In this document: piece by piece, positions 42,239 through 64,000 of the stretch
Position numbering within the stretch: the first letter of the stretch is position 1
How the letters are laid out: each line of letters opens with the position of its first letter
From: Galdieria sulphuraria
Lineage: Eukaryota > Rhodophyta > Bangiophyceae > Galdieriales > Galdieriaceae
Direction of reading: 5' to 3'
Length of the DNA stretch: 64,000 nt
Assembly (NCBI RefSeq): GCF_000341285.1
Contig: NW_005178468.1
Coordinates: forward strand, 204,243 to 268,242
Program-made: the position numbers and the translations under genes
Notes under the pieces: model-generated
Told to the model about the DNA's origin: nothing
Databases searched by the model: none
The model's input: only the letters and a program-made list of their open reading frames with translations

Positions 42239-45200
42239 TTAATTCAAATGAACGGATATTTCTCTACTATTGCTTCGGTGAAAGGAATCATCATCTTCAC
42301 GAGAGTTGACAGTTGCAAAACGATCTCGGTAACTGGAAGTACTTTTCCAATTGTCACTGCTGTTATTTGACGACACTTTAAGTTCTTCTAGCTTCTGCGA
42401 ATATATATCATGAGAGAGCGAAACATTGAAAGTCTCCTCCTGCGTTGTCTTTCCTCTCCTGTGTTGCTCTTCCAATGAAATACTTTCTAAACCCTTCTCA
42501 ATGTATTCTCGAAATACAAAACTGGTCGCGTCCAGATAAGGCGTCAAGTCCACATCAGGATATATTCGGCGAAACTCATATAGCTCTCGTAGACCATTCT
42601 TTGTATGTTCTTTCGTACTTATCCTTTCGAAAATCTTTTCGAGACTTTCACGAGATACCGTTTCAGGAGGTGCTCGAGGTTCCGTAGGAGACTCTAGTAA
42701 AACTTCCTTCATAAAGCCTTCAACTGGAGCTGTCTTGCCATCTAGAAACTCTTGTAGTAGACGACTCAACACTGGTTTCGTTTCCAATGGAATAAGACTG
42801 GTGAATTCCCATATTTGACTGCCATGAATCTTCACCAAATCACCCAGCAAAACTGTGACCATTTGAAATCCTGAATCTGAGCTTTCACTCGCAGTGTCTC
42901 CTTGAATACTTTGTTTTCGACCTTTCTTGGCACAACGCGCGGTTAAATATACATGAATATCTCTCAATAACATGGCGACATTAACTGACGAAAATCCAGT
43001 TTTGGAAAGTTTCGAGATACATTTCACTATCAGAGAAATCTTCTTCTTTGCTTGTTCAACACTTCTGCTATCACTTTCTCTCAATATAGAGTCTTCTTCC
43101 TTACTTAAAAGTTCAAATAAGACACTATACAACGATGTCCTATCTGAGTTTTCTAAAATTTTCAGTACCAATAAATTCAATGCCCGTACAACTTGACTTC
43201 CATCTTTCCACAAAGGTATTTGAGTAGACAATAGTCTTGTGAGTAGTTCATCCAGCAAACATAAGGAAATTTGTGGGTCCAACAAAGCAACAAAACTTTT
43301 TCTCAAGCAGATTTGCATCAAACCATTCAAAAAATACTTCAACTTTCTGATATTCATCTCATCACCAGCACAGGAATCAAAGACATTACGAATATGGTCT
43401 AGTAAAATTTGAGTAATAGTAGAAGACTCTGGCAAAAAAAGACTTTCACTAGAAGGACTCTGAAGAACAAGACAAAAACTTTTAACACCTTCGATTTGTG
43501 TATCTGTTTCACTAGTACAAAGCATATCGATTACTTGCGTCGGTTCCATTTGTCGCATCTTCGAAGATACTGTTGCTGCTACAGGAAAACTCTTATCATT
43601 ATCTGATGATATCGATGAACGATTTGTCACATTTTCTTCCATTTGAACTCCATTAGATAAAAGTTCTGAGTCCATTGCATTTTTTGTTTCATTGTTACCC
43701 GTTTCTAAACCCGTCAAAGCATCAAATGATTTGCTTCTACTTCTCCGATGATATCGAGCGTTCAAGGAGGCGACGTTTTCATTCTTCTGAGGGCTTCCCA
43801 TTTGTGTGAATTCTTTACTATCCGCAATAGTAACGTTCACGGGAGAATCAAGACCTTGTTCCAATTTGACAGCATCCATCATTTCTGTAGACTTCATTTT
43901 CTCGCTAAAATTAGGTGAATTTTTTGCTTCGCTTGAAGTTGATGCACGTCGAAACGAGGAACTCTTTGATATCACAGGAATTCTTGAAGAAGAAGACCCA
44001 ATGTTTGTGCCTTCCTTCGTATCAAGCTTAAATTCAGCAATGTTAGGTTCAGGTAGTGATGTCTGCATCGATTCACGAACATTATTTGGAGATTCTCGAC
44101 TTTGCCTTTCTTCATTGACAGTCCCGTGAGAGTTTTCTGAACGCTGACGTGACGAAAGTTTATTAGCAGAAGAAATTTTCGGCTTTTGAAGAGAACTGCC
44201 AGTAATCTGTCTGCTTATGCGCTTCTCCGGTGTCTTCAACTGATTCATTCCCAGTCTTTCCTCCAGTCCGTGTCGTTGTCCTTCTGATATATCCCCAACT
44301 CTCTTCCAAAACTGGCCAGGGTCATTAGAATAAATTCTATTCAAAATAGTCTGAGCAAGTCTGGAGATGGAAGAATCTTTATCAAAAACGTGTTCCACAA
44401 AATGAAAAACTGTCTCCATTGGAAAAGCTTCCATGTTGATTTCCTCCATAATGATCGAAATTTCTTCCAAGCATTCCATTCTAGAACGAGGATTCTTGGA
44501 CTTGAGACCGTCAATAAGATAAGGGATAAATTTCTCCCTTGACAATATCTTTTTTAGATATTGATAGGATCGTTTCACGTTGTTCCGAATCAATGGCTTC
44601 AGACTTCCAAACCTTAAAGTTTTTTGTCAGTGAAAATGTTGAGAAAGTGGCAATACATTATACTCACTTTTCACACAATACAGGTAAAAGAAAACTTGCT
44701 TCATAATCTGAAATGTAAAACTCATGTCGCTCGAGGATAGAACAAAGGTTTGCAATGAATTCCAAAGCTTTTAACATACTAGACGAGCTTCCTTCATCAT
44801 TAACGCGCAAAGCAACCCACCGGAATAATATGTCTTCATTATCCAAGGCTGCCATTTCGTCATCAGATATGGCAGAGTTCAACTCTTCGAGTGCTTCCAA
44901 GTGTTCTTTAAAATTAAAGCTTGGTGCGCTCATCTTGGAAAACAGCGATGCAGATACAATTTCCTTTAGTTCATTATGAACTGACTCAATAATAATTGTT
45001 GAAAATGTGTCAAACGCTGCACCAGGCTTCCTCTTGGGTGCTCTACTCTCTCGGTTTTTTCGTCCATCATTCCTTTTCAAAACACACTCCTTTGACTTTT
45101 CAGAAGTTGTTCGCTTCTTCGGAGTTCCGCCTACAGTATTCTCTCGAATCTTACCAATGCTATTGGAACTTTTCTGAACTCCCAAATTTCGTTTCATACT

Positions 45201-48200
45201 AGTAGTCACAACAGTAGATTGAGGTCTCCTCAGAGCACGTTCTCGAGAACTTCCAGAGCTTTGAGACTTGGATTGAGTTGACTCTGACTCTGATAATCCA
45301 TTCTCTAGCCTTTCCAAAATTGGCTTCACTTGCGTCAGTAGGTTTTCAGATTTGGCTTTGACTTGACGTTGCACAACTGATACACCGACTTGTTGTGATA
45401 CCCACTCAAGTAACTGCTCTCCAAGCTGACGAACTTCAAGTGTCTTACTCTGTATACCAACAGTTGCGCAGTCGACCCAGACAAGAACTTCAGTTTCCGT
45501 CACTTCCAAGGACTTGTAGTTTTCACATGATTTGAGATGTGGAAGAATCCACTGTAGAATTTCTTTTCGAAGTTGCGCATTGTCTTGTTGCAAAATCGGT
45601 GGCAAATTCTTCAACAGAAAAGCCAAACCCATTTCTGTTTTACAACGTTCCAAGCATGCCAAAGAAGCTTCCCTTACATTCTTCTTACTATCAGCGATAC
45701 CTATTGTGCAAACAGCAGGCAATATGTGCTTTGCTATATTAGAGCCACAGTTTCCCAATGATAAAAGCAGTTTTTCCAGTACACTCAATCCAAATGCTGC
45801 AAGGTTTCTATTTGTATCACTTATTCTACTTTTAAGTGCATTTACCAGTTCCATATTCACATTTGGTTCGATAGAAAATCTTGCATCTCGAAGTATACTT
45901 TCGACGCTGCTTAGAGCTTCCTGTCTTATCTTCCAGTTTTTATCACCAAGTTCATTTACAAGCTTTGAAGTCACTTTTGAAGTAATATCAGTTTTACAAG
46001 TCTTTTCGGAAAAAGATGAACCAAGATTATTTTCTACAGAATGAATGAAATCTATCTTGACATTGGAACGTATTGATCTCTTGGCAACTTCAGAGTCCTT
46101 TGGTAGTTTAGATAATTCACCTTCAATGTTCGCAATCAATTGCGACTTTACCCCATGCTGTTCTAATGCAGTACGGATAGATGAGTTTGGAAACTTGGAT
46201 TGAAGGACTGCAGCAAGTTTGGTTGCACCAGAGCGAACGAGTGGAGATGAATTCTCAAATAACGATGGAAGGAAAGACAATATGATATCCTTCGGGGTTG
46301 TCTCAACATTAAATTCTAAAACTAACTTCTCCAAGAAAGAAATGATGTTGGCTACTAACTTGGGATTCTTCGCATCCTTTAAAGCCTTTGATACATAAAT
46401 GTGAGCGACAGTAATTGGCATCACAATTTCGGCTGCTTCTAAGAGGAAATCAGTTGCTAATGATGAAAATTTGAGATCACCCAGCTTTTCAACAGAATTA
46501 ATACCAAACTCTTTTAGGAGCTCTGGTTGAATGTTATCACAGAACTGGCACACAATCTTCAAGATTTCTAGTTTGTTGCGAACGACAATAGCATTGGAAT
46601 CTTTCAGTCCCCCATTTTTTGATAACACAGCGCAGATAACTTTTGCGACATGATTGACATCAGTAGCACTACGAAATAGTTCAGGAACTGCATTCTTAAG
46701 TTCTTCTGTACCCGCCACTCTCTCTTTAAAGTCACTACTTGAGAAGTTTGAGATGGGAATGTTTGGAAAAAGCTGTTTCGCGTTAACCTCAAGCTCTTCT
46801 TCACTGAGTTGAGATTCTTGTTGTTCACTATATACGGCCGATGACTGTGGCTTGGCTACAGAAAGTTCTTGAGTAGAAGCTGACGCAATATTCTTCGTTG
46901 CAGTTGGAGTCGATGATGTTGATTTTGGGGGCTTTGAAGGCTTGGAGGAGTTCGAAGAACCTGAAGATATTGCCACAGAGTGACGTTTCGTCTTGGATGC
47001 AAGCCTTGGTCTTGTGCTCTGCAGTGACATTCGTTTGTCATCTCGTCGTTTGACCGTTCTTGAAGTAGAGGCAGTATGACTTTCACGTTGATGTTCTTTC
47101 GATGTCACCACATCTCTAGATTTATTGACTGATCCTCGTAATGCAGGTACTTCCGAAACATAATGTTGAAGTTTTTCTTTTCGTATGGTGTCCAGAGAGT
47201 CTATAAAAGAAGATAAAGCATTTTCTCCCACTAAGCATGTTAAAGCAGCCAAACAAGATAGAGCAGCGTCTCGCACTTCAGGAGTCGAATCTTCACTTGC
47301 TTTGATAAACAATGATGCTAGATCTTTTGCATTACTTTTAAAAGATGAACCAGGAAAAATATTGGAACGTAGACAACTGTCAATCCACTGCAGAGCCAGT
47401 GCTCGTGCTGTAGGAACCTTATTCGACACAGCAGTCGATATTTCTTCCTTAATGTCTACAAGTTGAATACACTTTTTACAGAAAAGAGTCTTCAATGTAG
47501 ACATAATTGCATCCACTAGGACCTTGTTCTTTTCCTTTAATCTTGATAGCAACTCTGCAATAATAAGTCTGCTATAAGTTGTAAAATTTTCTCGCAAGCC
47601 AATTGCAAGACTTTCAGCACATCTTGAGGCTGCCGCAGTTACATTCACATTCACTTCTTTGGCAAGAATTCTTTTCAATTCCTTTACAAGGGGAGTGAAG
47701 TCGCCATTGATGATCTTCTTTCCTTCACAGTTGGAACTAACGTCATCCAGAACTTGCTTCTTTACTGACCACTTTTTACAATTCAATGCACCATAGAAAT
47801 CAACTTTGTTGCCTTCATCTATTTCGTATTTCATGTGTGAAATTTTTGCAAGCAAATCAATTTCTGGTGCCAAATCTAGTACATTGTCAGTGGATTGTTC
47901 GACTTCCTCTTCATTGCCATCTTTTTCTTCATATTCCGTTGAACCATCCTGATTCATATCTTCTCCTTTCTCTTCTTTGCTCTTTGTAAGACGCTTCGGA
48001 CGAGGCTTTTCTCCTTTCCATTCATCAAATGTAGCTTCCAATTCTCGTTTAGTCACTTCCTTGAAGCTTTCAGTAATAGGTTTTATTGCTTCACCAAGCC
48101 ACTTATACATTTCGACAATCAAGGCTTTCGTAGCATTTCTAACATCTGCATTACTGTGTTCCATAAGAGGTGGGAGCAGTTTCGCGACAAATTTGACATT

Positions 48201-48739
48201 GATTGCGTTAATACCAAAAATGTCTACAGCTTCCCTAACTGAATCTACGCAAGCAGAGACCACCTTTGGCGTCTTATGGTTGAAACCAGTGGCGATGCCC
48301 TCTACTGCTTGTTCTCCAGCCTCAGCATAAACAAATGCTAGAAATGCTTCATGTCCTCTTTGCTTGTTGGTTGGTCTTCCGGTAAACGCTTTGTCTGCCA
48401 CAGCTTTGCAAACTTCTGCTGCACATTTTTTTACCTAGTTGCCGGTGATTCTAGCATTCGAAACATTGAGCTTGTTTAACTAACCATAACAGAAGGAGCT
48501 CTTTCTGCGAAGACAATAATAGCTTCCAGTCCTGAAAGCTGTGCTGCAGCGTTGGCATCTTTAGCAAGTTTTACAAGACAACCTTGGTACTCTTCAAAAC
48601 GTGCGCTTTCGTCGATTGAAAGTTTTTGAAGTAAAGAAGCCAAATCTTTATAGCTTTGCTCTCGTACCTTCCATAAATTATGGGACAGACGATCACTGAG
48701 CTTAAGTTTTAATGCCTCCTTTACTTCTTCTTCGGACAT
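42239..48739 (-). CDS. MOR1: XMAP215/Dis1 (TOG-domain) microtubule polymerase, three exons
   Basis: Reverse exons 48485-48739, 44668-48434 and 42239-44612 with introns of 50 and 55 nt, together 2131 residues. Each of several TOG blocks has HEAT-like repeats: TOG1 (HNLWKVREQSYKDLASLLQK), TOG2 (LNCKKWSVKKQVLDDVSSNC), TOG3 (SSDFKERVAGTEELKNAVPE), TOG4 (ELGDKNWKIRQEALSSVESI) and a fifth before residue 1500. Ser/Arg-rich linkers between them (for example around residue 500) would bind the microtubule lattice. Length is similar to plant MOR1 and human CKAP5. These proteins add tubulin dimers to plus ends and organise spindle and cortical arrays. The start at 48739 is the first ATG; the open frame goes further without one. 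Confidence 0.92.
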
Positions 48740-48889: not shown

Positions 48890-48979
48890 GATCCCGTGGC
48901 CTAACGGATAAGGCGCCAGACTTCGGTTTTGAAACAGGGAGATATCTGGAGATTGCGGGTTCAAGTCCCGTCGGGGTCG
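48890..48979 (+). tRNA. tRNA-Arg (anticodon TCG) with a 17-nt intron
   Basis: 90 nt with acceptor GATCCCG/CGGGGTC (one T-G pair) and discriminator G. Box A is GTGGCCTAACGGATAAGGC; the anticodon stem is CCAGA/TCTGG. The anticodon loop starts CTTCGG, anticodon TCG, then a 17-nt intron (48927-48943) after position 37, the canonical site. The T arm is GCGGG-TTCAAGT-CCCGT. CCA is not encoded. T-runs at 48987-48990 and 48997-49002 are pol III stops. It is divergent from the XMAP215 gene. Confidence 0.92.
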
Positions 48980-49971: not shown

Positions 49972-50751
49972 ATGGTCAGACGAATCATCAGGGTCTTAGA
50001 ACAGCGTCACGGAAGCCCACGCTTTTGGGCAACTTTACCCTTTTCTGCTAGAAGGGTTCATAAGGGACAGAGGTTTTTTTTAGATGACGGTGAAGAGGTT
50101 GAATTTGACTGCCCTTATAACAGTCTACTCACCCCAGGTCAGCAGCTGGAGACAGAACAAGGAGATATTGTGGAGATAATTGGCGAAGAGGAGGCAGTTT
50201 CTGTGGCTATGTTACGTCAAAGTCATCCTTTGTTATTTGGCAGGGCTTGCTATATTTTGGGAGTTTTTCATATACCCGTTGAGCTGGGTAGAGATTGGTT
50301 GCGATATCCAGTGAACAACCAAGTCGATAACAAACTGGCGGAACTTGGCTTAGAAGTACATACAGAAAGAGCTATTTTCTGTCCTGACAGGGATGCTTTC
50401 CTGTATCAAAATTTGATAGCGGCTGGCAGAAATCACGATGGTGCAGTAACAGTAAACAGTTCTTTGGTAGCGGATGGATATGCTCAAAGTTATACTCAAA
50501 ACGCACAGTATGCAGCTCCATTGAATAGGCCAGTCAATCCTTCAGGGTTTCCTAATGAATATCCTTATCAAGAAAACTATTCATATGACCCATATCGACC
50601 CAATCCTTCTTATGTTCAGCCAGTACCCGATTATAATGATGCCGTTTATGTTGTTCAAGACCCATATGGTTACGATCCTAATAATAGTCAATATTTACCC
50701 CCTCAATCTAATTCGGGAGGGTTTTTTAGAAGAATATTAGATGACTTGTAA
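49972..50751 (+). CDS. UreE-like protein without the nickel-binding histidines
   Basis: Single exon, 259 residues from the ATG at 49972. The first 150 residues align with bacterial UreE: N-terminal domain RVHKGQRFFLDDGEEVEFDC, middle TEQGDIVEIIGEEEAVSVAM, and the C-terminal domain from GRACYILGVFHIPVELGRDW to KLAELGLEVHTERAIFCPDR. In UreE the last block reads ACYHLGNRH-x-P...HHDHVLDDML; here His is Ile in YHL, and HHDHV is VNNQV. The bound-metal His is thus lost. The family's His-rich tail is replaced by 110 residues rich in Tyr, Pro, Asn and Gln (QPVPDYNDAVYVVQDPYGYD). UreE delivers Ni2+ to urease; eukaryotes normally use UreD, UreF and UreG without UreE. No intron, no clear leader. Confidence 0.8.
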   Translation: MVRRIIRVLEQRHGSPRFWATLPFSARRVHKGQRFFLDDGEEVEFDCPYNSLLTPGQQLETEQGDIVEIIGEEEAVSVAMLRQSHPLLFGRACYILGVFHIPVELGRDWLRYPVNNQVDNKLAELGLEVHTERAIFCPDRDAFLYQNLIAAGRNHDGAVTVNSSLVADGYAQSYTQNAQYAAPLNRPVNPSGFPNEYPYQENYSYDPYRPNPSYVQPVPDYNDAVYVVQDPYGYDPNNSQYLPPQSNSGGFFRRILDDL

Positions 50752-52359
50752 AACTTCTCCAGTCTTGTATCTATCAGGCATACTATGCTTTGAGATATTA
50801 TTCTAGTGAGGTTTTCTTATTCCAAAAATTTTTGTCTTCTTCAATTGCTATCACAGGGGAACATAATTTGTTTCAGGCATCTTTGAAATTTCTCAACAAG
50901 GAAAACATTCTTAAAGAAACCAATACAGAGAGGAATAATATTTATCATTTTTCATCTATTTGATTGTATATATACCAAGCTTTGTATCAAGATTCTGGAG
51001 ACATTCAACATTCAGCTTTTTGTAGTTTATCATCTTGTTGTAGCAAAAGCAAGGATTCATAAAGTTCGAACCCAATCTTCATTTTGAAGAATTTTTTTTA
51101 CTCATTATTTATTACAATGACCGGCAAAGTTACTGTGCTGTTTGGCAAGAACTTGGTTTTTGTCAGACAACAACTATGAGTGAAAAAAAGTTTTTAAAAT
51201 GGAGGAAAAATGCGTCGCCTTTTTAACATACCGTGCAAGAGAATATTGTCACAACTTCCACGGTTCTAACAGCCGGAACTCTCATGTGACTTTTGCACAG
51301 TAATAGATTCAGGAGGTTGTTGTAACTTTATCTAGTCAATCCACTTTATCGTTACTAAATTATCTATTTGTCCGTAGAAACGCAAGTAATCACGCCGTTT
51401 CATCAGTTTCTTAAAGTCAACCAACCCACAATACACCATTCGACTATTAGCAATGAGTACAGCCTTTCTTCTCCTTTGAAACCATAACCGAAAAGGGGTT
51501 TCCACCAAAGTGCTAATATTGCAAGGGAACAAAGTGTTTTGAGTTCAAATTCGACCTCGACTATTTTGTATTTTAGAGAAACTCTCGTTGACTTTGTTGG
51601 AATAAACGAAACTCACAAATGGACAACAAATCAGCGCTAATTCTCGCAACGCGTTGTTATTATTCTCATCACATAGTTTGGTTTAGTTAAATCTAACCAT
51701 ATTCGTCAGCTTTGGTGTCACACTTGCAAGTTGACAACAACTTTCCTAAGACACTAATATTCTCTTCTTGTAACGTGGTTATAATGAGATTGGTTTTAGT
51801 TAGGCTAAACATTGTCTCAATAGCTGAATATTTTTTAAAAGGGAGGCTTTCTGTAGAAACTCATCAGGTATACAAGAAACTATACCACTTGTAAAAGAAG
51901 CAAAGTTTACACTCAACAATACGTGATACTTTGTGGAAAGATCCAATGCTGAGAACTTTTTTGGACCCAGTTCACGCTTGATTATGAAACTTTTAGCTAC
52001 TCAAATTCCAGTGAGGATTTGGTTTAAGTTGTACAAATGAAGTTTCATCATTCAAGTTTCTCTTTGAATATCTTTCAAGCTGTGAATTATGTTGCAATAG
52101 TCCAACGATGCCTTGTGGAATTTAAGCTCCACATAACTTGTAGTGCCTTTTGCATTGTCCAACATTGAATAACTCTGTTACGTTTATATACTCTATATAC
52201 AAGAACTCTCTAAATTCTGGTATTCTATGTAAATAAGCTATTTGTGTTTCGAGGAGAAAGCAAAGGCGAAGGACATGGACTTCTAACTGTCTTGTAAATG
52301 AGCATATCCTTGTTGAGTGCTGTTTCAGGATATTTTTACTTTTATAGTTGCAGCACAGA
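50752..52359. other. Gene-poor region, nothing recognised
   Basis: About 1.6 kb after the UreE-like gene. A few short frames occur (such as 51332-51532, reverse, 66 codons without ATG), but no family was recognised. No RNA signature or clear repeat was found. It begins the gene-poor zone that extends to the window end. Confidence 0.35.
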
Positions 52360-53640
52360 ATCTTGTCCTGTAGGCTGTTGTTGAGAATCAGCCTTTGAGT
52401 TGATATTTTCATGTAGTTTTGCAGGAATCTAACCAGATTCTGCAATAGATCCTATGTTTATTGCACTTTTGATACTTTTCACACACACACACACACACAA
52501 TATATATATATATATATATATACTTTTCGTCTTATAAGAGACTCTTTTTAAAGAGGCAGATTGTAGCTCTGCGATCGCAAAAAACGCAAGACCATTCTGC
52601 CCATTTGTCATGATTTTTTTGATTGCTGTTTTTTTGGGTTGTTCATAGACTGGCATTTCCGACAAAGTCCATTATTACATAATGAGGACTGTTAGTAACA
52701 AGTTGACGACGCGTTTGATTCAGACTTTGACTAGAGATAGATAGATTGCCAAATATTCTAAAGAGCCAGAAAACGTCCAACCAAAATTGTATTGCAAATC
52801 ATGCTAGCATTGTCTAATTTCTCAATTCAAATATTCGTTACTGCCCATAAATGCCAATTCTAATTGAACATAGATGCAGAATTGGCAAATAAACCAAGTC
52901 AAAATAAAGAGAACAAAAAACAAAGCCTGGAAATTCTACCACTAAAAGAAGACAAAAAAACTTGAGCAACGAAGTAGTAAAACTAGAAACAAATGAAACT
53001 GATGATCATAAAGAAAAACAAGTAAAACGTTACAGGAAGATAAAATGCATGAATTGAGCTACGAGAAAGGGAAAAATTTAGTTTATTGCTAGAAGTGAAG
53101 TTTGAAAAAGGAAAAAAAGGAATAAAGCAACAGGTTGATAAATGAAACACAAAAACTGCAAGAAACTAAAGGACATGGGATTAAAGAATGTGCTAAGGAC
53201 ACTGTCAAATTATGGTTTTTCTGGGAAAATTTTGAATGAGATAGGTGACATAGAGTCGTGCTTTCAAAGAAAGTGGGTTTGTTCAGTTTGAGAAAAAATG
53301 TTTTGATTTCATAATATGTTCAAGCTGTTGTAACTAGGAGATAAAAGGAAAAAGGCAGGATTGAAAACCTAGGGTTGTGTTTCCTTGGTAAAAATTGTGA
53401 CACTGGTAGTTGTAGCTGCTACTGATTGGACCCTTTTTTTTGAAGGACTATTTTCTCTTTATGAAAGTAAAAGTGTAGAAGGGTGATATTATTCCAAAAA
53501 GCTATGTAGGTTGTGAGAGTAATAAAGGTGAAACTGTCGCCTTTGATGTTTCTGGAAGCCATCTGGTTAGAGTTGTCAATAGTCAAGGATATATAGATAG
53601 AGAGGAGGGTAGCATTAGTAGCCTGTGTGAAAGGGAAACA
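52360..53640 (+). repeat. Diverged direct repeat, copy 1
   Basis: Four blocks recur in the same order and direction at 53815-54570. Block A: TTGAGAATCAGCCTTTGAGT at 52381, against AAGAATCAGTCTTTGGGTTA at 53841. Block B: about 52525-52590 against 53950-54015 (both with GACTCTTTT and a CTCTGC near the end). Block C: 53290-53440 against 54222-54362 (GGTAAAAATTGTGAC against GGTAAAAGGTTGTGACGA). Block D: 53560-53640 against 54490-54570 (AGGGTAGCATTAGTAG against AGGGTAGCAGTAGTAG, then GGGAAACAAGGAGA in both). Copy 1 has about 500 bp more between B and C (about 52700-53250, A-rich). Identity by eye is 60-75%. Confidence 0.6.
52480..52522. repeat. Microsatellite (CA)n then (TA)n
   Basis: A run of about nine CA dinucleotides followed directly by about eleven TA dinucleotides, inside repeat copy 1. 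Copy 2 lacks it, so it arose after duplication or was lost there. Confidence 0.9.
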
Positions 53641-53814
53641 AGGAGAATCACTACTGGTATTTTATGGAAATTTGAGAGCTGTGTTGTCAAGAAAAGAGCA
53701 AAGACATTTAAGCTGTGGTTGAGTCTTAGTAGATTACTCAATGAGTTGTCTCGCAAGTCCATTTAGATTTAGTTTTACTGATCATTGTTAGAGCAGTTTT
53801 GCGTATTTATTAGC

Positions 53815-54570
53815 AATTGAAAGTCTTGTAGTCGATTGTTAAGAATCAGTCTTTGGGTTAATATTTCCACGGTATTCTACAAGAACAAGAAACCGGTCAG
53901 CCTCTCAGTTGAGTGTTTTGTCAGTATAAAGAGTTGTATTCCTTATGGTAGTTTTCTTTGTCGTTTATATGACTCTTTTCAATATAGAAAACTCGGTCTG
54001 TAACTCTGCAACAGGTTTTAAAGTGTAAACGATATTTGCACTTTTTGTAAAACCCATTCATTTTCAGGATAGCATAGGAATGTTTTGAGTCCATCATTGC
54101 ACATTTTTAATGATTGATGTCTTTTGAAATATTATTTGTGAGGCCTTAGAAAACGACACCCACGAGGTTTGACAGTTTTTGAAAACGAAAGCTGAATAAA
54201 CTGGCTTTTTGAAAGCAAGAAAAAATGTTTTCAATTCAAAATATACTCACATTGTTGGGAACCATGAAATAAGGCAAGGAAAATTGGCACTGCTGAAAGT
54301 CTTGGTTGCGTCCACCTGGGTAAAAGGTTGTGACGATGGCGACTGTAGCTATAGTCCGTTTTGAGAAACGTTTTTGTTTTTATGAATTACTGGGTTTACC
54401 GAGGGTGAAATATGTCTAAAACAACATGTGAGTAGTAAGAGTGATAGTGTTGGAACTAGTATTGATAGTGTTTCGAAAGGCATCTATTGCAAATCGTCTT
54501 TGGTTTCTAATATAGTTGGAACGGAGGGTAGCAGTAGTAGGAAGGTATGAATGGGAAACAAGGAGACTTG
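53815..54570 (+). repeat. Diverged direct repeat, copy 2
   Basis: The second copy of the unit described at 52360. It is shorter by about 500 bp between blocks B and C, and its block D runs into the open frame at 54551. In copy 1 block D, about 53485-53765 is open for over 90 codons; in copy 2 the homologous frame has a TGA just before the ATG at 54551. Confidence 0.6.
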
Positions 54571-55015
54571 TGTGAAACGTTACTTGCCTTGTCAAGAGTG
54601 CTGCCGATCTGTTTTTTCCCAACACACTGAAAGTCATGCTGTTGAAAGTAGTGGTAGTTGTAGCTGTCAAAAAGGTGAAAATGAGACACGACATTTTGTG
54701 CAAACAGGTTGCGTTTGGATAGTATACAAAGTAGCTCTGAAAGAAGCTCATGAAGGATTGGGAGAACTTCAACAATGTTACACGAGTGCATACATTGATG
54801 TCATCGTGTCCGACTGGAGTTTTTGGTTCGACTCTGAAAATAAAGTCCAACTTTTGGTAGATAATGCCTATAAAGCATACGCAGGCGAACAATTTGGTTT
54901 GCACAGTGACATGAACCCAAAACATTTTTCGACTATCACAGCAAAATCAAACCATTCGCCACTACTTGAAATTCAACCAGAACAGCAACAACAACAAATA
55001 AAGGCCCGATCCTAG
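54551..55015 (+). CDS. Hypothetical protein, 154 codons, doubtful
   Basis: An ATG-started frame beginning in block D of repeat copy 2. The product is mixed: a Cys-rich start (PCQECCRSVFSQHTESHAVE, SSGSCSCQKGE), then VWIVYKVALKEAHEGLGELQ and VSDWSFWFDSENKVQLLVDN, and a Gln run at the end. It has no membrane segment and no family I know. The middle has a credible amphipathic pattern, but the frame arises partly from repeat DNA and has an in-frame stop directly upstream. It could be the 3' exon of a decaying multi-copy gene. Confidence 0.3.
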   Translation: MGNKETCVKRYLPCQECCRSVFSQHTESHAVESSGSCSCQKGENETRHFVQTGCVWIVYKVALKEAHEGLGELQQCYTSAYIDVIVSDWSFWFDSENKVQLLVDNAYKAYAGEQFGLHSDMNPKHFSTITAKSNHSPLLEIQPEQQQQQIKARS

Positions 55016-56459
55016 TACAGTATGGCAGAGTCATCAATTCTACAAAGAGAATGACTTGTGTTTCTATCTTTTACTGTTTTCTTCGTTGTTGGCTTGACTG
55101 GAGAATTGCAACTGTTTTATTTACTTGGAATTGTAAACAGACAACAACAACAACAATAATAAGACAAAGTTATAGTTTATTGGTTAGTAGTACATGGAAT
55201 ATTAATAATAGTTTTCGTCATAAAAGTACGAATTTGACCTATTTTTTACCATACAGGAAAATTGCATTGTTGAGTTTACAAAATAAAAGGGCATCATTTG
55301 CACACTTACAGACTATTCTTGTACCTTGCTGTCGGTAGAACTACATACGGTTCTGATTTTGAACAACAAATAGAGCATCGAGTTGCTTTCTTCGTCGATT
55401 TTCGATTTTTCTTGTACCTGTTTGAGACTAATCTTTATCTTTTGATTCTTGAAACGAACTTATTTGTTAACTCATGATAGTATGATGAAGCGACTAGTCG
55501 TCATTTCTTTTCCGAAAACGTCGACGTACAACCTTTCAGAAGCTTTTTTCATTGGAAATCCCGATCACAAAGAATCTCTTTGTCCCGTGATAGTTGCATT
55601 GCATCTGGAGGGATGGGCAATTGATACTCCAAGTGATCAATTCGAGACAATTTCGTCAGTTGAAACAAGTAATCTTTGACAAGTGAACTTGCAGCATCAT
55701 GAAAGTGCACAACATACTGTTTTCTGTGATGTAGAATCTGCTACTAATTTATCTTGATATATTGTATTGTTCTTATGTCGAAACCATCTTACGATTATTC
55801 GTGCTCCAGAATATTTCCATCTTACTTGTTCGACCCTAAGACCAGCTTCATATGAAGTAGTCATCTAGTTAATAAGGATAAGATAATATCTCTATTTCGT
55901 TTTTTCTCTTCTTTATTGGCGTAATTGTAGAATGGTGAAGATCTTGTTTTTTAGAGTTGTAATATGTTGTAAAAACAGTTGAATGCTCATTGTACAAGAA
56001 AAGGGATGAAGATGATAGAAAGTAGTATTCGAAGACTGAGGTATGATGTAAAGTCAAAGAAAAAATCAACTAGATTGCAGTCAAAGTTCTGTACAAACTA
56101 TCTATTGGGAATAGAAATTGAACTTGTCCTAGTACGACCTACTGGTTGGTTTCCCTTATTCTTATGAATTGTTATAAAAAAGACAAAAATTTATGTTTTA
56201 CATAGTATATACTTTTCAGTGAAAGAATATAGAAAGGTCAGTCGAAAAAAATTCAAGGAAAAGAAGTTAAATGAATGCTTCCCTGGTTTCATGATTTAGA
56301 ATATCAGACATATGATGTACAGATTTTGAGGTTGATCCTCACAAAAAGCAAGCAAAATCAACTCTGTGATTTTTACACAAGTAGCAGCAAAACACAAACT
56401 AATAGTCATATGTTCTAATTTCAGGATCCTTTCGTATATCCTTTGATGTTTGAACCCTT
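55016..56459. other. Gene-poor region with microsatellites
   Basis: About 1.4 kb. A CAA/TAA microsatellite lies near 55140-55162 (ACAACAACAACAACAATAAT), with a similar CAACAACAACA run just before the region at about 54980. A 65-codon frame from an ATG near 55482 (MMKRLVVISFPKTSTYNLSE) has no recognised family. Otherwise nothing was seen. Confidence 0.35.
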
Positions 56460-58310
56460 TCGCAACCTTTGGTGGTTTTCATCCACCTCTTTATCTTGGA
56501 CTATTACCACAATTGATTCAAGTGATAAATGACAATGTATTTATGCCGTACCAATACCTTGTTTCTATTGATGAGTTGAATTTGAATCTTATTTCAGAGT
56601 GATATCCGAAACAATTCTGGTTACAACTGTATTGAAGGAAGTAATAATCACTTGCTTTAGAGTACTCTGAATCTTACCACTTCTAGTTAAATCTCAACGG
56701 GATATGGCACAATTATTCTAGTAGATACATAAGAAAAGGTCTATTTGATTTCTTTCTTCTCAACGTATTTAGAAACTGGTTACTGTTTTGTATTACTTGA
56801 ATCGTATGCTGAATTCAATGATTTACTGTTCAGTGGAAAGAAAGTAAGATATCTTTTGATACTGCTCATTTAAGATGACTTTTTGTGTAAGAATTAGTTA
56901 TTGATTGATTACTAGTCGAATATCTCATCAAGATGAAATTCTGTTTCATAAGTTCGAAAAATGTCCTCTATGGTTGATTCAACTTTTGAATTCTTAGAGA
57001 TTATACTGAATTTATCGAACTCATTTAGTCCTTATCCCGAGAAAAACGATTTGCCATATAGCACTAGTATTATTATCATTACTAAGGATACAGAGGCTTA
57101 GCTAAATGAATACTTGGTTTGAAAAAAACTTAGTAGTAGCAGAATGCCCAATTATTCCTCCGCGATACTTGCACTTTATTTGCGATACTGGATACTCTTT
57201 TCTTGATCGTTTCATCCTAGATAGCTTCACGAATCGACTCAAGCGATGAATCGCATTATATCTTTGCAGCGCCACGAATATGTTACTACTAGTTTATATA
57301 TTTTGACATTAACTTGTTGTTTGTTCAGATATAACTACGTTAACCTGTACTTGATTCAATTTGATTACTACTTGTTTTGAAGTGCTTTTAGTTATACTAT
57401 TTCGTTCCAACCAAGCATCACTGGGTACGCTATAGTCACTTTGCAGACAAGAATCAGATGTCAATCTTTTTTCAAGTATTCGCATCTAAATGCGTTGATT
57501 GTTAGAAACGTTCAAAGTTGGCTATTGAAATATAGCCCTAGTAATGAATGGAATCAATGTGTTAGACAAGATAACGGCACAATTCGATGCATACAAAAGT
57601 TGAATCAACGTTTTCATTCAAAACCAATTGTTTGATAGCAAGACTAATATACGTTGTTATCTTTTAGGGGGTATCTACGAGAGAGTTGGTTGAATTGTCA
57701 TTATGTGGACATTGGGTTATCCAATAGAGTTTCTGTTAGATGGTGTTTGTATAAGATGGCTTCCTTAAGGTAGAAATGATACTTTATTGACTGCTAGTTG
57801 TCGAGTTGATAAAGACTTTGTACCTTTCCACTTGAAATCTTGCTGTTGTATGTACAGAGTCTTTATATCCGAAGCAGTGTTTTATGTGGTCCTTAGGTAC
57901 CCTATATGCTTGATTCAGCGTCGAATTGTTGAAGATTATCTTGAATTGTCTAAAATAATTTAGTCTTTACTCTAAAAGGATGATTTACAGACTATTATTT
58001 GGATTACCTAAAATCAAGTCGAAGATCAATTCATTCGAGAATCACAGGGTGAGAATCCGAATTGCAGCAAAGCATCAATGTTTCCCTTGATATTTGTATG
58101 CTGTGTGCACTATTAGGGTAAGCCGTTGTCCATAATTCAATTAAGGTACATTTGTGGATTGACTTTCATATTGAATGACAATGTGTTTCTAGAATATTGA
58201 GAATATGTTACTATTGATGAGCATAGATCAATCAGCATCCACTATTCTTGTATCTGTACGGAATTCAATTAAACTTTGTTTGAATTCACTGATTCCTATG
58301 AGTATTGGTG
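56460..58310 (+). repeat. Three diverged copies of a dispersed repeat
   Basis: A core of about 65 bp recurs three times in the same direction at about 56510, 57230 and 58155. In the first, ATTGATTCAAGTGATAAATG precedes ACAATGTATTTATGCC and ends TTTCTATTGATGAG. In the second, ATCGACTCAAGCGATGAATC ends TGTTACTACTAGT. In the third, ATTGACTTTCATATTGAATG precedes ACAATGTGTTTCTAGAAT and ends TTACTATTGATGAG. Spacing is about 720 and 925 bp. Flanks are only weakly alike. The copies are old and probably remnants of a mobile or satellite unit. Confidence 0.45.
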
Positions 58311-61300
58311 AGAGCGTTCTCGCTTCACTGCCTTGGCACCAAGCTCAACTTGCGTCATAGAATCATTATTTTTTTTTGATAAAGATACTGTGTTAAAAGT
58401 CTATTGCTTGTTTCTATTGACTGGTCGGAGAGTAGTCATCATCTTGTTATCTTGTCTTTTCAAGAAAGTTGCAATTACTGAACACTAAAAACTGAACTTT
58501 AATTGAAATGAAGTATCACATCGATAAACTATACTATTCATATACTACAGAATCATTTGATTTAGAAGAAGACTCAACTAGATTGCAGACGATTGGTCAC
58601 AAAGGAGCTGCAAAATGAAGCAAAGTAACCTTGCTGATACAAGCTATTGAATCTCTTTTTTCATGTTTATATGTTATATAGTAAAAGATAAAGAAAATGA
58701 TTCCTTTCATTTCAACTTTTATACAACTCGCTAAACAAAAAATACACCAATTTGCTTTGGAAGAAAATAGATGATGAAAGATATAAGGTGGAAAAAGAAA
58801 GAAATGGCTTCCTAGTTCAATAGACTACAGAGATAGTGTTATGAGCCAAAAGTCTTGACTTCGATTCTCACTAGAAACATCAACGATATTCTGGTCGTCA
58901 TAAGTAGAAAAAGTATTCACTACCAGCACCTCCTACTTGTAACAGTAGAATGTTTATGGTACTTTGTTTTGTTTACCCATTCTACTGATATGCATGACCT
59001 GTATTTGAATAACATAAAGTAAGAAGTAGGCTGTTGAAACAATTTGTTTAATGTATGTTATTTCATGGCATATCTAATCGTTACAAATTGCCCAATGCTT
59101 CAAGGACCTGATTACTAAGGCATTCTTTATTCTTTTCACACGGACTTTATTCTTCTTCTTCCTTTTTTTTATCTAAAATGAATATCATACAATCTTCACT
59201 GATAGAAGCCAATCAAATTTCTATTCGAAAAGGCAAATTGTAGAATAAAGCAAGGAATATACAATCTTACTTGCAGAATCATTATTTGCATCTTTGTAGA
59301 TATTATTCTCTATATAGTTGTAACTTTCTTTACTGGTTTGGAAAGTTTGTGCAACAACCTTAATAGGAAGAACAATATCAAGTTTATGATTCAACTCGAT
59401 CTTGATACTAGTATTCCATGAAGAAGGATATCACTCCTCATCATACTCGACGAATGGTTTTAGATTCGAACTAATCAATCAATCTTATGTCAATCAACAA
59501 CTTGACCGGAAAAAAGTTGCTTGTATTTATTTCATTGCAATAATTATTGAGGTCTTGGTATAAACAGGCAGAGATGATTATAAAAGCAGAATTTACTATC
59601 TGATTTCCACACTTGACGACAACAATAACAGCAACTCTTAAAGGAGATAGGACAACACTTCTCACTACACCATTGTTCTCGAAGAGTCGTTAACATAGTA
59701 TTTCTTCTATAGTTCGTCATTTATTTAGAATTGTGAATAGTGTTTTACGACCACTCTCTTTCGCTATGTTGTGAATTCAATATATCTCTCAATTTTGGAA
59801 GGGATATATTTTTCTATCTAATCAACAAGACTAGAGACAATAGGAATATGAGCTAGTGTCCAGGAATCAGTTTGAATTCAACTGATTTCAAGAGATTAGG
59901 TTTTGGCTATGTTGAATCGAGTTTGAACTGAATTGAGTGGAAACAAGTAATTTTACAAAATAGGCAATCAGCTATTAAAAAAGAGAATAAGCTGAGTGTT
60001 TTGCTTGATAGAATCAGAACAATGTCATCGGATAAAGAGTTGCGTATTGTTTCTTTAAGCATCATTCATTCTCTTGTTCACTACGCCTTGTAGATAGAAT
60101 CGAACGAGTCGGTCATAAATAGAGTACGTTTGGTATTTATCATATCAGTTATGCCTAGTTACAAGCTCAATTTGGAGTTGTCGAGAGAGGGACTTCAATC
60201 TACCTTGGCTACTTTTGTATTGAACTTGGTGTCAAATAGAACGACTTGACCTTGTTCATATGAATTCATATTTTCTTATAAATACTGTATTTGAAGAGTA
60301 CCTATTATATGCTATTTGAATTTACCCTTAACTTTTTTTTCACTGTTTATCACACAGCAAATCATGTAACTTATTTTCTAAAAGCCTTGGTATCGTTGAG
60401 ACTATCAAGTTTTATGGCTATGAATTGTATAGTTTTGATAGAATTCACTTGACTCTAATCTGTCCCATCAAAGATCGATTTGATAATGGGACATGCATAA
60501 TGTCGCAGTTAACTACAGAATCATAGGCATACGAGGCAATTCAACTGTATTGGAAGGAACTGTATGCTCGGCAACCTTAGAGATCATTCCTATTTGAAAT
60601 AGAAGAAAGCAGACATTCGGTTTTATGTTGTTTGAAAGATTTGAATCCACATGATAACTTGAAAAGATTGAGGAAGAAGTACTTTGATCATAACCTTAGA
60701 TCGATAGTACTTCAAGTCTTGCTGAGATACATGGTTATGTTCGTTTACTTTTTTTGGTGAAAAAAGTTGTCTCTTATCTTTGTTATGTCAAGCTATTACA
60801 AAATCAAGTTGATCATCTGGTACAGCTTTCAGTGGGTCATGGTCATTTGCACAACAGACTCTTTGTCATCTTTTTGATAGAAGAATTGAGTTTGGCTTGT
60901 GTTGATTCATTGATTGAATGATTCATTGCTTTGTGTCATACTAGCCTATTTATTTATCAACTGACAAATAATTGCACTCGGATTTGTAAAATTGACTGAT
61001 TCCAGCATCTGAGGAATAGTAGCAGGACAATTCTATTTAAAAAGATGATTTAAGAATTCACTTTAGACAGATTGTTGATTTGCGAGTCAAAGACAAGTTT
61101 TAACCATTGAAAAAGATACACATACCAGGTAAGTGATATAAATAGGAGTAGTTTCATTTTGCATTCTCAAGCTGAATATTTATTGGATAGTGCTAATAGA
61201 ATGAAATGGGTTACTTGAACCACACTGGGTTGTCCGTCTATTATGAGTTCTTTAGCTCATGAAGGTCTTTTATCGTGACACTCGAAACCTCTCTGTCCCA

Positions 61301-61739
61301 TAAGAAGGGTCGTTATACCCTAGACTTTGGTTCATATAGTATTTATATACCCTTGATAGTTTATTTAATACCGATTGCTTCACGATTGTATGGATCTATT
61401 GGAAGAATTTACCCAAGTAGACTCGGCAGACGAAATACCAACGAGTACTAGTATTCTTTCGTTTAAATACACAGAGGACAATCTAGTTGATAGTTTGCTT
61501 TGCAAGAATCATAACGAGAGAAAATCCCGAAATTCCTTCCTGATAGTTGCAACTCACTTTCAAACTCTAAACAGATCGTTGACCTTAACTCGTTTGAATC
61601 CATTGTTTCCAGAATTGACCCAATATTGAATCATATTGGTATAATGTAGAATGAAAATTTTGTTGTTGCTATTGGGTCTGATTTTGCATAATAAGTTGAG
61701 CACCAATATACACACTTTTTACTGATTTTTCTGCTAATG
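58311..61739. other. Gene-poor, AT-rich region
   Basis: About 3.4 kb in which every frame is short and none resembles a family. A tRNA-like stretch lies near 58806-58875. A CAACTGTATTGGAAGGAACT fragment at about 60538 recalls CAACTGTATTGAAGGAAGTA at about 56625, so repeat remnants reach this far. A frame of about 80 codons (from an ATG near 61387, MDLLEEFTQVDSADEIPTST) is the only one with coding-like composition. Confidence 0.35.
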
Positions 61740-62060
61740 GGAAAGATGGGCAATTTGAAAAGAGTGGCCGATTTGGAATGGGCCCGCGCAATTTTGATTT
61801 GAAAGTTGTCATTATGGGTGTGAGGTGGGAAAGAATGGGTTAATTGGAAATGGGAAAGAGTGGGAAATTGCGATGGGGGAAATTGAGTGGGGAAAAGAGT
61901 GCAAGGAAATTGAAGAGGGGGCAACCCAAAGGCGATTGGGTTGATTTGAAAATTGTCATTATGGATGCGGGGAAGAATGGGTAAATTAGAAATGGGGGCA
62001 TTTGAAATTGAGGACAGTGTGCAAAGAGGACTGAGTGTGAATTGAAAATCTTGGGAGAAT
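61740..62060 (+). repeat. Subtelomere-like satellite, G-rich block 1
   Basis: G-rich on the plus strand with very few C. Motifs TTGATTTGAAAGTTGTCATT (61794) and TTGATTTGAAAATTGTCATT (61942) lie 148 bp apart. Between and after them are GGGAAATTGCGATGGGGGAA (61862) and AAATGGGGGCATTTGAAATT (61990). ATGGGGG occurs at 61873 and 61992. Confidence 0.8.
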
Positions 62061-62749
62061 CCATACAGGAAGAGTGTTTGAAAAATTCCAATTCGAGAAG
62101 CAAAAGAATGAAATTTGAACTTCAGTTATATTTTATGAGATAGTAGTAGTAGAAAGTTCAATTACATGCTGTCTACATAATGTTTCCATGCTTTCATAAT
62201 ACATTTTTACTCTAAAATAATCTTCTTATAAGATTACTAAAGAAAATATAATGACAATTTAATATAATTAATTGAAACATTGAAAACATTATTAAAAAAT
62301 TTTATGATTGACTTAATTTTTAACTGTTACAATTAAATGTTCAAAGTAAATATTATATAAACACAAAAAACTCAACAAAGCAAAAAAAGAATTAATTTTA
62401 AAGACTATATTTGTGCATTATCCACTAAATTGACAAAAATAAATAATTTTTAAATTAGTTTCAAAGCATTTACTAAAAAGATACACAACAAAAATAAAAC
62501 GATCAGCAAAATTTGATAGCGACCTTGACAAAAAAATATATACACACAATAAACGTAAAGTCTGTTCTTCAAAAATTAATAACATCGAAAGTGAAAACCA
62601 ACCTATAAAAAAAGAGGACATAGTCGTAGTATGTATAGAAATAAAAGTTTTTTATTCAAAGAAATAAATGTATCTAATGTGATTAAGTAAGATGGCGCAA
62701 AAAAATAATGAACGAACTGAAAAAAAACAAAGAATTGCATCTGGTAAAT
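62061..62749. repeat. Subtelomere-like satellite, AT-rich block 1
   Basis: Very AT-rich DNA. It aligns with 63260-63900: TGTCTACATAATGTTTCCAT at 62171 against TGTCCACGCAATGTTTCTAT at 63328, a distance of 1157 bp, and AATTGAAACATTGAAAACAT (62270) against AATTAAAACATTAAAAACAT (63424). No coding frame is credible here. Confidence 0.75.
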
Positions 62750-63245
62750 TGCCAATTGATGAGAGAATATGTATGGGGGAATGAGATGGTCGATTGCGGG
62801 TAAAGGATGGTAGTGCATCTTTGGTTTGAAAATTGTCATGGGGGAGTGTTGATGGAGGAAAGAAGGGGCCAATTGGAAGTGGAAGAAAATTGGGGGTCAA
62901 TTGTGATTTAGAAATTGCCATGGGGGAAAATGAGTTGGAGAAGGATTGGGGCCAAATTTGGAGAGGGGTCAACTCGAAATGTGGATAGCAATTGTGATTT
63001 TGAAATTGCCATGGGGGAAATGAGTAAAAGGGGAGGAAGGATTGGGGCCAATTGCAATTGGGAAGAAAGGGGGCCAACCCGAAGGTGGATTGTGATTTGG
63101 AATTTACCATTATGAATGATGGGGAAGGATGGGCAAATTTGAAATGGGAAGGGGCGTTGGAAACTGTAAGGGCAGTGTCTGAAAAGGACAGGGTGGTTTG
63201 AATTGAGGAATTTGGGAAAATACAAGAAAGGTGTTCGAGGAGTTT
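62750..63245 (+). repeat. Subtelomere-like satellite, G-rich block 2
   Basis: Inner repeats of about 65-98 bp with GAAATTGCCATGGGGGAAAA at 62911 and GAAATTGCCATGGGGGAAAT at 63002. ATGGGGG occurs at 62773, 62838, 62920 and 63011. Intervening text is like GGATTGGGGCCAATT and GGAGAGGGGTCAACTCG. Confidence 0.8.
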
Positions 63246-63900
63246 AAGTTCCAAAATTAGAAGAATTCAAGTTGACCTTGATTCATATTTTAGGAGATTT
63301 AAATAGTAGTAAACTTGACGACATACTGTCCACGCAATGTTTCTATGTTTTTATCATACAACCTGATTCAAAAACAATCTTTTTTAAGCTTGAAAAAACT
63401 ATGCTAAAAAAATTAATATAGTCAATTAAAACATTAAAAACATTTATAAAGAATTTTATTATTGAATTGATTTTCAACGCATATATTTCAATGTTTTCAA
63501 ATAAACTCTATATTAAGGCAAAAAGTTCAATAAAGCCAAAATAAATAATTTTTAAATTAAAAATTTACACAGTAGCTAGTTCATAAACAAGAGAAAATAA
63601 TTTTAGTTTTAAAATAATTACTAAAAACAGCAAAAACAAATATAAAACTTATAAGCAAAAATTAAAAGCAAGATAAACAGAAATAGATTACAATCGTACA
63701 ATAACGAGAAAATTTGTTTTTCAAACATCAGTAAATCGTAAAATAGATACCAATCTATGCGAGCGATAAGACACAATTTTGAATGATACACAAAACACAA
63801 AAAGAAGTTGCATTTAAGGAAAGAAAGATGTCCAAAAATATTGAAAAGGATACAGTGCAGAAACAAAAATAGACAAAATAACTCAAGAAAACAGACAAGC
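63246..63900. repeat. Subtelomere-like satellite, AT-rich block 2
   Basis: The second AT-rich block of the higher-order unit, aligned with 62061-62749 at an offset of about 1157 bp. No coding frame is supported; the reverse frame at 63621-63968 is compositional. Confidence 0.75.
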
Positions 63901-64000
63901 TTGATTTGGAGAATGCCATGGGGGAAAATGAGTAAGGGCAAAAATGGGCAAGTTTGGAGAGGGGTCAATTCGTAATGCGCATGGCCATTGTGATTTGGAA
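63901..64000 (+). repeat. Subtelomere-like satellite, start of G-rich block 3
   Basis: TTGATTTGGAGAATGCCATG then GGGGAAAATGAGTAAGGGCA, again with ATGGGGG (63918) and GGAGAGGGGTCAATTCG, as in block 2. The array continues past the window edge. Confidence 0.8.

Follow-up and report, generated by a model that had tools for sequence, protein, structure and literature searches.

A UreE-fold protein of Galdieria in which most of the nickel site is replaced and no urease is found in the genome

The window analysed here is a stretch of 64,000 nucleotides from the red alga Galdieria sulphuraria, forming the right end of contig C8 (NW_005178468.1, 204243-268242) in a genome of 12.0 Mb and 102 contigs. 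It contains a gene at 49972..50751 (+) which encodes a relative of the bacterial protein UreE. The UreE fold is present in this protein, most of its nickel site is replaced, no urease system was found in the genome, the gene is conserved across Galdieria, and the protein has a new tail with a conserved end. We give a probability of roughly one half to the reading that it is a UreE-fold scaffold or adaptor of bacterial origin, which has lost its link to urease and carries a tethered docking or membrane motif.

The gene is intronless, as the first-pass annotation of the window had noted, and its open frame comprises 259 codons followed by a stop. It is the only UreE_C match and the only copy found in the genome. 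Kinship with UreE by descent and fold, over both domains, is supported by profile matches and by a predicted structure, in line with the first-pass annotation. Residues 1-75 (49972..50196, +) form the N-terminal-type domain; residues 76-147 (50197..50412, +) form the C-terminal ferredoxin-like domain. The latter matches PF05194 (UreE_C) at residues 81-143 with 33.6 bits, above the cut-off of that profile, which is also exceeded in three of four orthologs (P0002 reaches only 15 bits). The Pfam UreE_N profile does not match the window protein; the N-terminal domain is recovered by profile-profile comparison, in which residues 3-78 match with a probability of 97.7. The NCBIfam UreE profile gives 72.4 bits (E 3e-20), which is below its equivalog cut-off of 144. 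The structure model, which drew its alignment depth from 56 bacterial sequences, has the two-domain UreE fold.

The nickel site was compared across six Galdieria sequences and 123 bacterial UreE sequences (116 proteins and 7 of 16 loci), a set which leans towards Pseudomonadota-like sequences, as does the query alignment. Nine positions, each with one and the same residue throughout the 123 bacterial sequences, are changed in all six Galdieria sequences: Leu47 to Cys, Arg49 to Tyr, His95 to Ile or Val, Asn98 to Val or Ile, Arg99 to Phe or Tyr, Val117 to Gln or Arg, Leu118 to Val or Ile, Gly141 to Asp, and Tyr143 to Phe. Five of the six have Asn in place of Asp115. Compared with the Klebsiella aerogenes protein (PDB 1gmu, 1gmv, 1gmw), the HLGNRH surroundings are replaced, and PVNNQ (residues 113-117; 50308..50322, +) is aligned with HHDHV, so that His110 becomes Val and His112 becomes Asn. 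The first-pass annotation had this segment as VNNQV, one residue out of register, but was right that its histidines are lost. Position 110 is Val in all six Galdieria sequences and His in 120/123 bacterial ones; position 112 is Asn, Ser, Lys or Asp in Galdieria, never His, and is His in 119/123. His110 and His112 are thus not universal among bacterial UreE proteins. His96 is present in all 123. According to PMC7055735, this residue is conserved and matters for urease activation, whereas the His tail is dispensable in Klebsiella. The corresponding position is Arg in five Galdieria sequences, but the window protein has His there (His100, codon 50269..50271, +), and the earlier claim that the nickel ligands are all replaced is not supported for this protein. 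These alignments do support the view that the Galdieria relative has lost most of its nickel site.

Unlike Klebsiella-type UreE, the protein has no urease to serve in its own genome, as far as was found. Exon-by-exon profile searches gave no match to urease alpha (two models), UreD, UreF or UreG, and control genomes were positive; the genome check proposed with the first-pass annotation therefore found no partners. No NicO transporter was found in the genome either. Since no urease was found in the species, urease service is unlikely for this gene. Eukaryotic urease maturation relies on UreD, UreF and UreG. UreE is reported to be missing from plants and fungi (PMC10100864); the Galdieria genome presents the reverse, a UreE relative with no match to the others. 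There are two cobW matches on contig C38, and the gene with the first scores best as ZigA/CobW-like. In this CobW-family gene (L002 1048-3054), residues 81-219 match the final part of the ZigA profile (positions 252-390) and precede the GTPase match (about 337-520), an unusual domain order. The second match lies about 1 kb away.

In place of the His-rich tail of Klebsiella-type UreE there is a Tyr/Pro/Asn/Gln-rich tail, as the first-pass annotation had noted, and this tail has an amphipathic end. The tail proper (residues 148-247; 50413..50712, +) contains no lysine and is predicted to be disordered: the predicted local distance difference test score (pLDDT) is mostly below 50 from residue 155. 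It was compared in five proteins, with P0005 omitted as a near twin of P0004 that has a different C-terminus. The five tails are 102-113 residues long and contain 9-14% Tyr, 0-2 His and no lysine. The two domains have mean pairwise identities of 0.77 and 0.70 and the linker one of 0.37; the value is 0.64 for residues 224-247 and reaches 0.86 for the final 12 residues, where 9 of 12 columns are invariant. This terminal motif, SGGFFRRILDDL (residues 248-259; 50713..50748, +), is predicted to be a short amphipathic helix; the hydrophobic moment of the last 11 residues is 0.73, and the model places a helix at 251-258 with low confidence (pLDDT of the block 51).

Transfer of a UreE-like gene from bacteria is plausible. 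The five Galdieria sequences in the tree form one group (support 100/100) whose stem, 2.55 changes per column long, carries a long-branch warning, and all named bacterial sequences in the tree are Pseudomonadota. With such a stem and such sampling, the tree names no donor and proves no direction of transfer. No wide eukaryotic family, which would speak against transfer, was seen: among the matches listed by word-limited protein searches, no other eukaryote appeared. Contamination, which had been raised as a concern, is unlikely, as orthologs exist in Galdieria partita and G. phlegrea (the closest named ones) and GC content at third codon positions is 0.32, inside the range of 0.26-0.34 for seven other window genes. 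The orthologs share the start MVRR or a near variant. Presence of a UreE relative in this eukaryote is not new: a Galdieria UreE orthogroup of horizontal origin, OG0003777, has been published (Rossoni et al. 2019, PMC6629376), and transfer was thus proposed before the first-pass annotation suggested it. OG0003777 is probably the present gene because a single UreE_C match was found in the genome. It is presented there as a urease accessory protein, and nothing in the accessible part of that paper refers to the lost nickel site, to the urease partners that were not found or to the tail. A description of the lost nickel site or of the tail in Galdieria was not found in the open-licence literature. 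Rossoni et al. also give single-exon genes as 42% of Galdieria transfer candidates and 19.2% of native genes, an excess which the intronless UreE-like gene fits.

Under the scaffold reading, an ancestor of Galdieria would have acquired a bacterial-type UreE; the link to urease would then have been lost and the protein retained for another role. By analogy with UreE, the folded head may dimerise. The lysine-free tail could be a flexible tether for the end motif, which in turn could dock on a membrane or a partner protein; the protein would then be a cytosolic scaffold or adaptor and not a nickel carrier. A new role, whether as scaffold or condensate, is what we infer. A narrower form is rated somewhat less likely than not: a captured metallochaperone fold would have become a metal-free, urease-unrelated, Galdieria-specific cytosolic scaffold, its nickel interface rebuilt with hydrophobic or neutral residues and a lysine-free tether and C-terminal amphipathic docking helix added. 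Several points weigh against the scaffold reading. His100 may permit a two-His site across a dimer interface in the window protein. The structure predicted without an alignment is poor (pLDDT 41), and short exons may escape exon-by-exon genome searches. An exact DNA pattern encoding GGFFRR has one occurrence in the genome, in this gene, and the reversed control has three, so the C-terminal motif points to no shared partner.

The main rival is a retained role in handling nickel, copper, zinc or another metal, which would work through His100, or through Cys47 and Cys137 with nearby acidic residues. These cysteines are invariant in all six Galdieria sequences and absent from all 123 bacterial ones; together with His100 in the window species they keep this rival alive. 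Copper, zinc and cobalt are among the metals that UreE proteins can bind (PMC7055735), and toxic metal levels are high in the Galdieria habitat (PMC6629376). We nevertheless consider it unlikely, given Arg at the His100 position in the other five sequences, no His at positions 110 and 112 in any, the loss of the His-rich tail and the failure to find NicO. Less probable again is a chaperone for peptides or clients in which the non-metal part of UreE function persists and the tail recruits clients or forms condensates. The N-terminal domain of UreE resembles the peptide-binding domain of Hsp40, the fold is kept, and the tail is Tyr-rich and of low complexity, but phase separation does not follow from tyrosines alone.

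That the protein is an ordinary nickel chaperone, serving a urease which the searches missed, is very improbable. This would agree with the UreE annotation in the literature and with other urease genes reported in G. phlegrea DBV009, which appear unique to that species (both from the accessible part of PMC6629376), but not with the missing urease alpha, UreD, UreF and UreG or the mostly lost nickel site; the cobW matches fall in CobW/ZigA-like genes (profile scan of the first only). The slightest chance is that of decay, with the gene as a relic of transfer. The long stem and lost ligands would suit it, but it is contradicted by conservation across Galdieria: an intact frame, orthologs, domains with 70-77% mean identity and a strongly conserved C-terminus.

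The upstream neighbours of the gene are not urease-related: they are an XMAP215/CLASP TOG-domain protein gene at 44664-48401 (-) and a tRNA-Arg at 48890-48979 (+). Downstream, 50752-64000 is a gene-poor contig end in which four open reading frames were tested and none has a Pfam match; GC content drops to 0.30 over the final 2 kb, and the G-rich word ATGGGGGA occurs six times from 61873 onward. In P0006, a protein of G. phlegrea SOOS, the ortholog model is joined to the small chain of a clathrin adaptor; in the window genome that chain has its best match on C55. P0006 is probably a merged gene model, in which case the neighbourhood of the gene would differ between species.

Overall, the observation in the first-pass annotation is confirmed in part and its interpretation is partly supported. 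If the scaffold reading is true, the gene would be a clean example of a bacterial sequence that was transferred to a eukaryote, kept its fold, gave up the chemistry that defines it and acquired new conserved parts. The published account of the Galdieria gene as a urease accessory protein, likely a misreading of its function, would then need correction.
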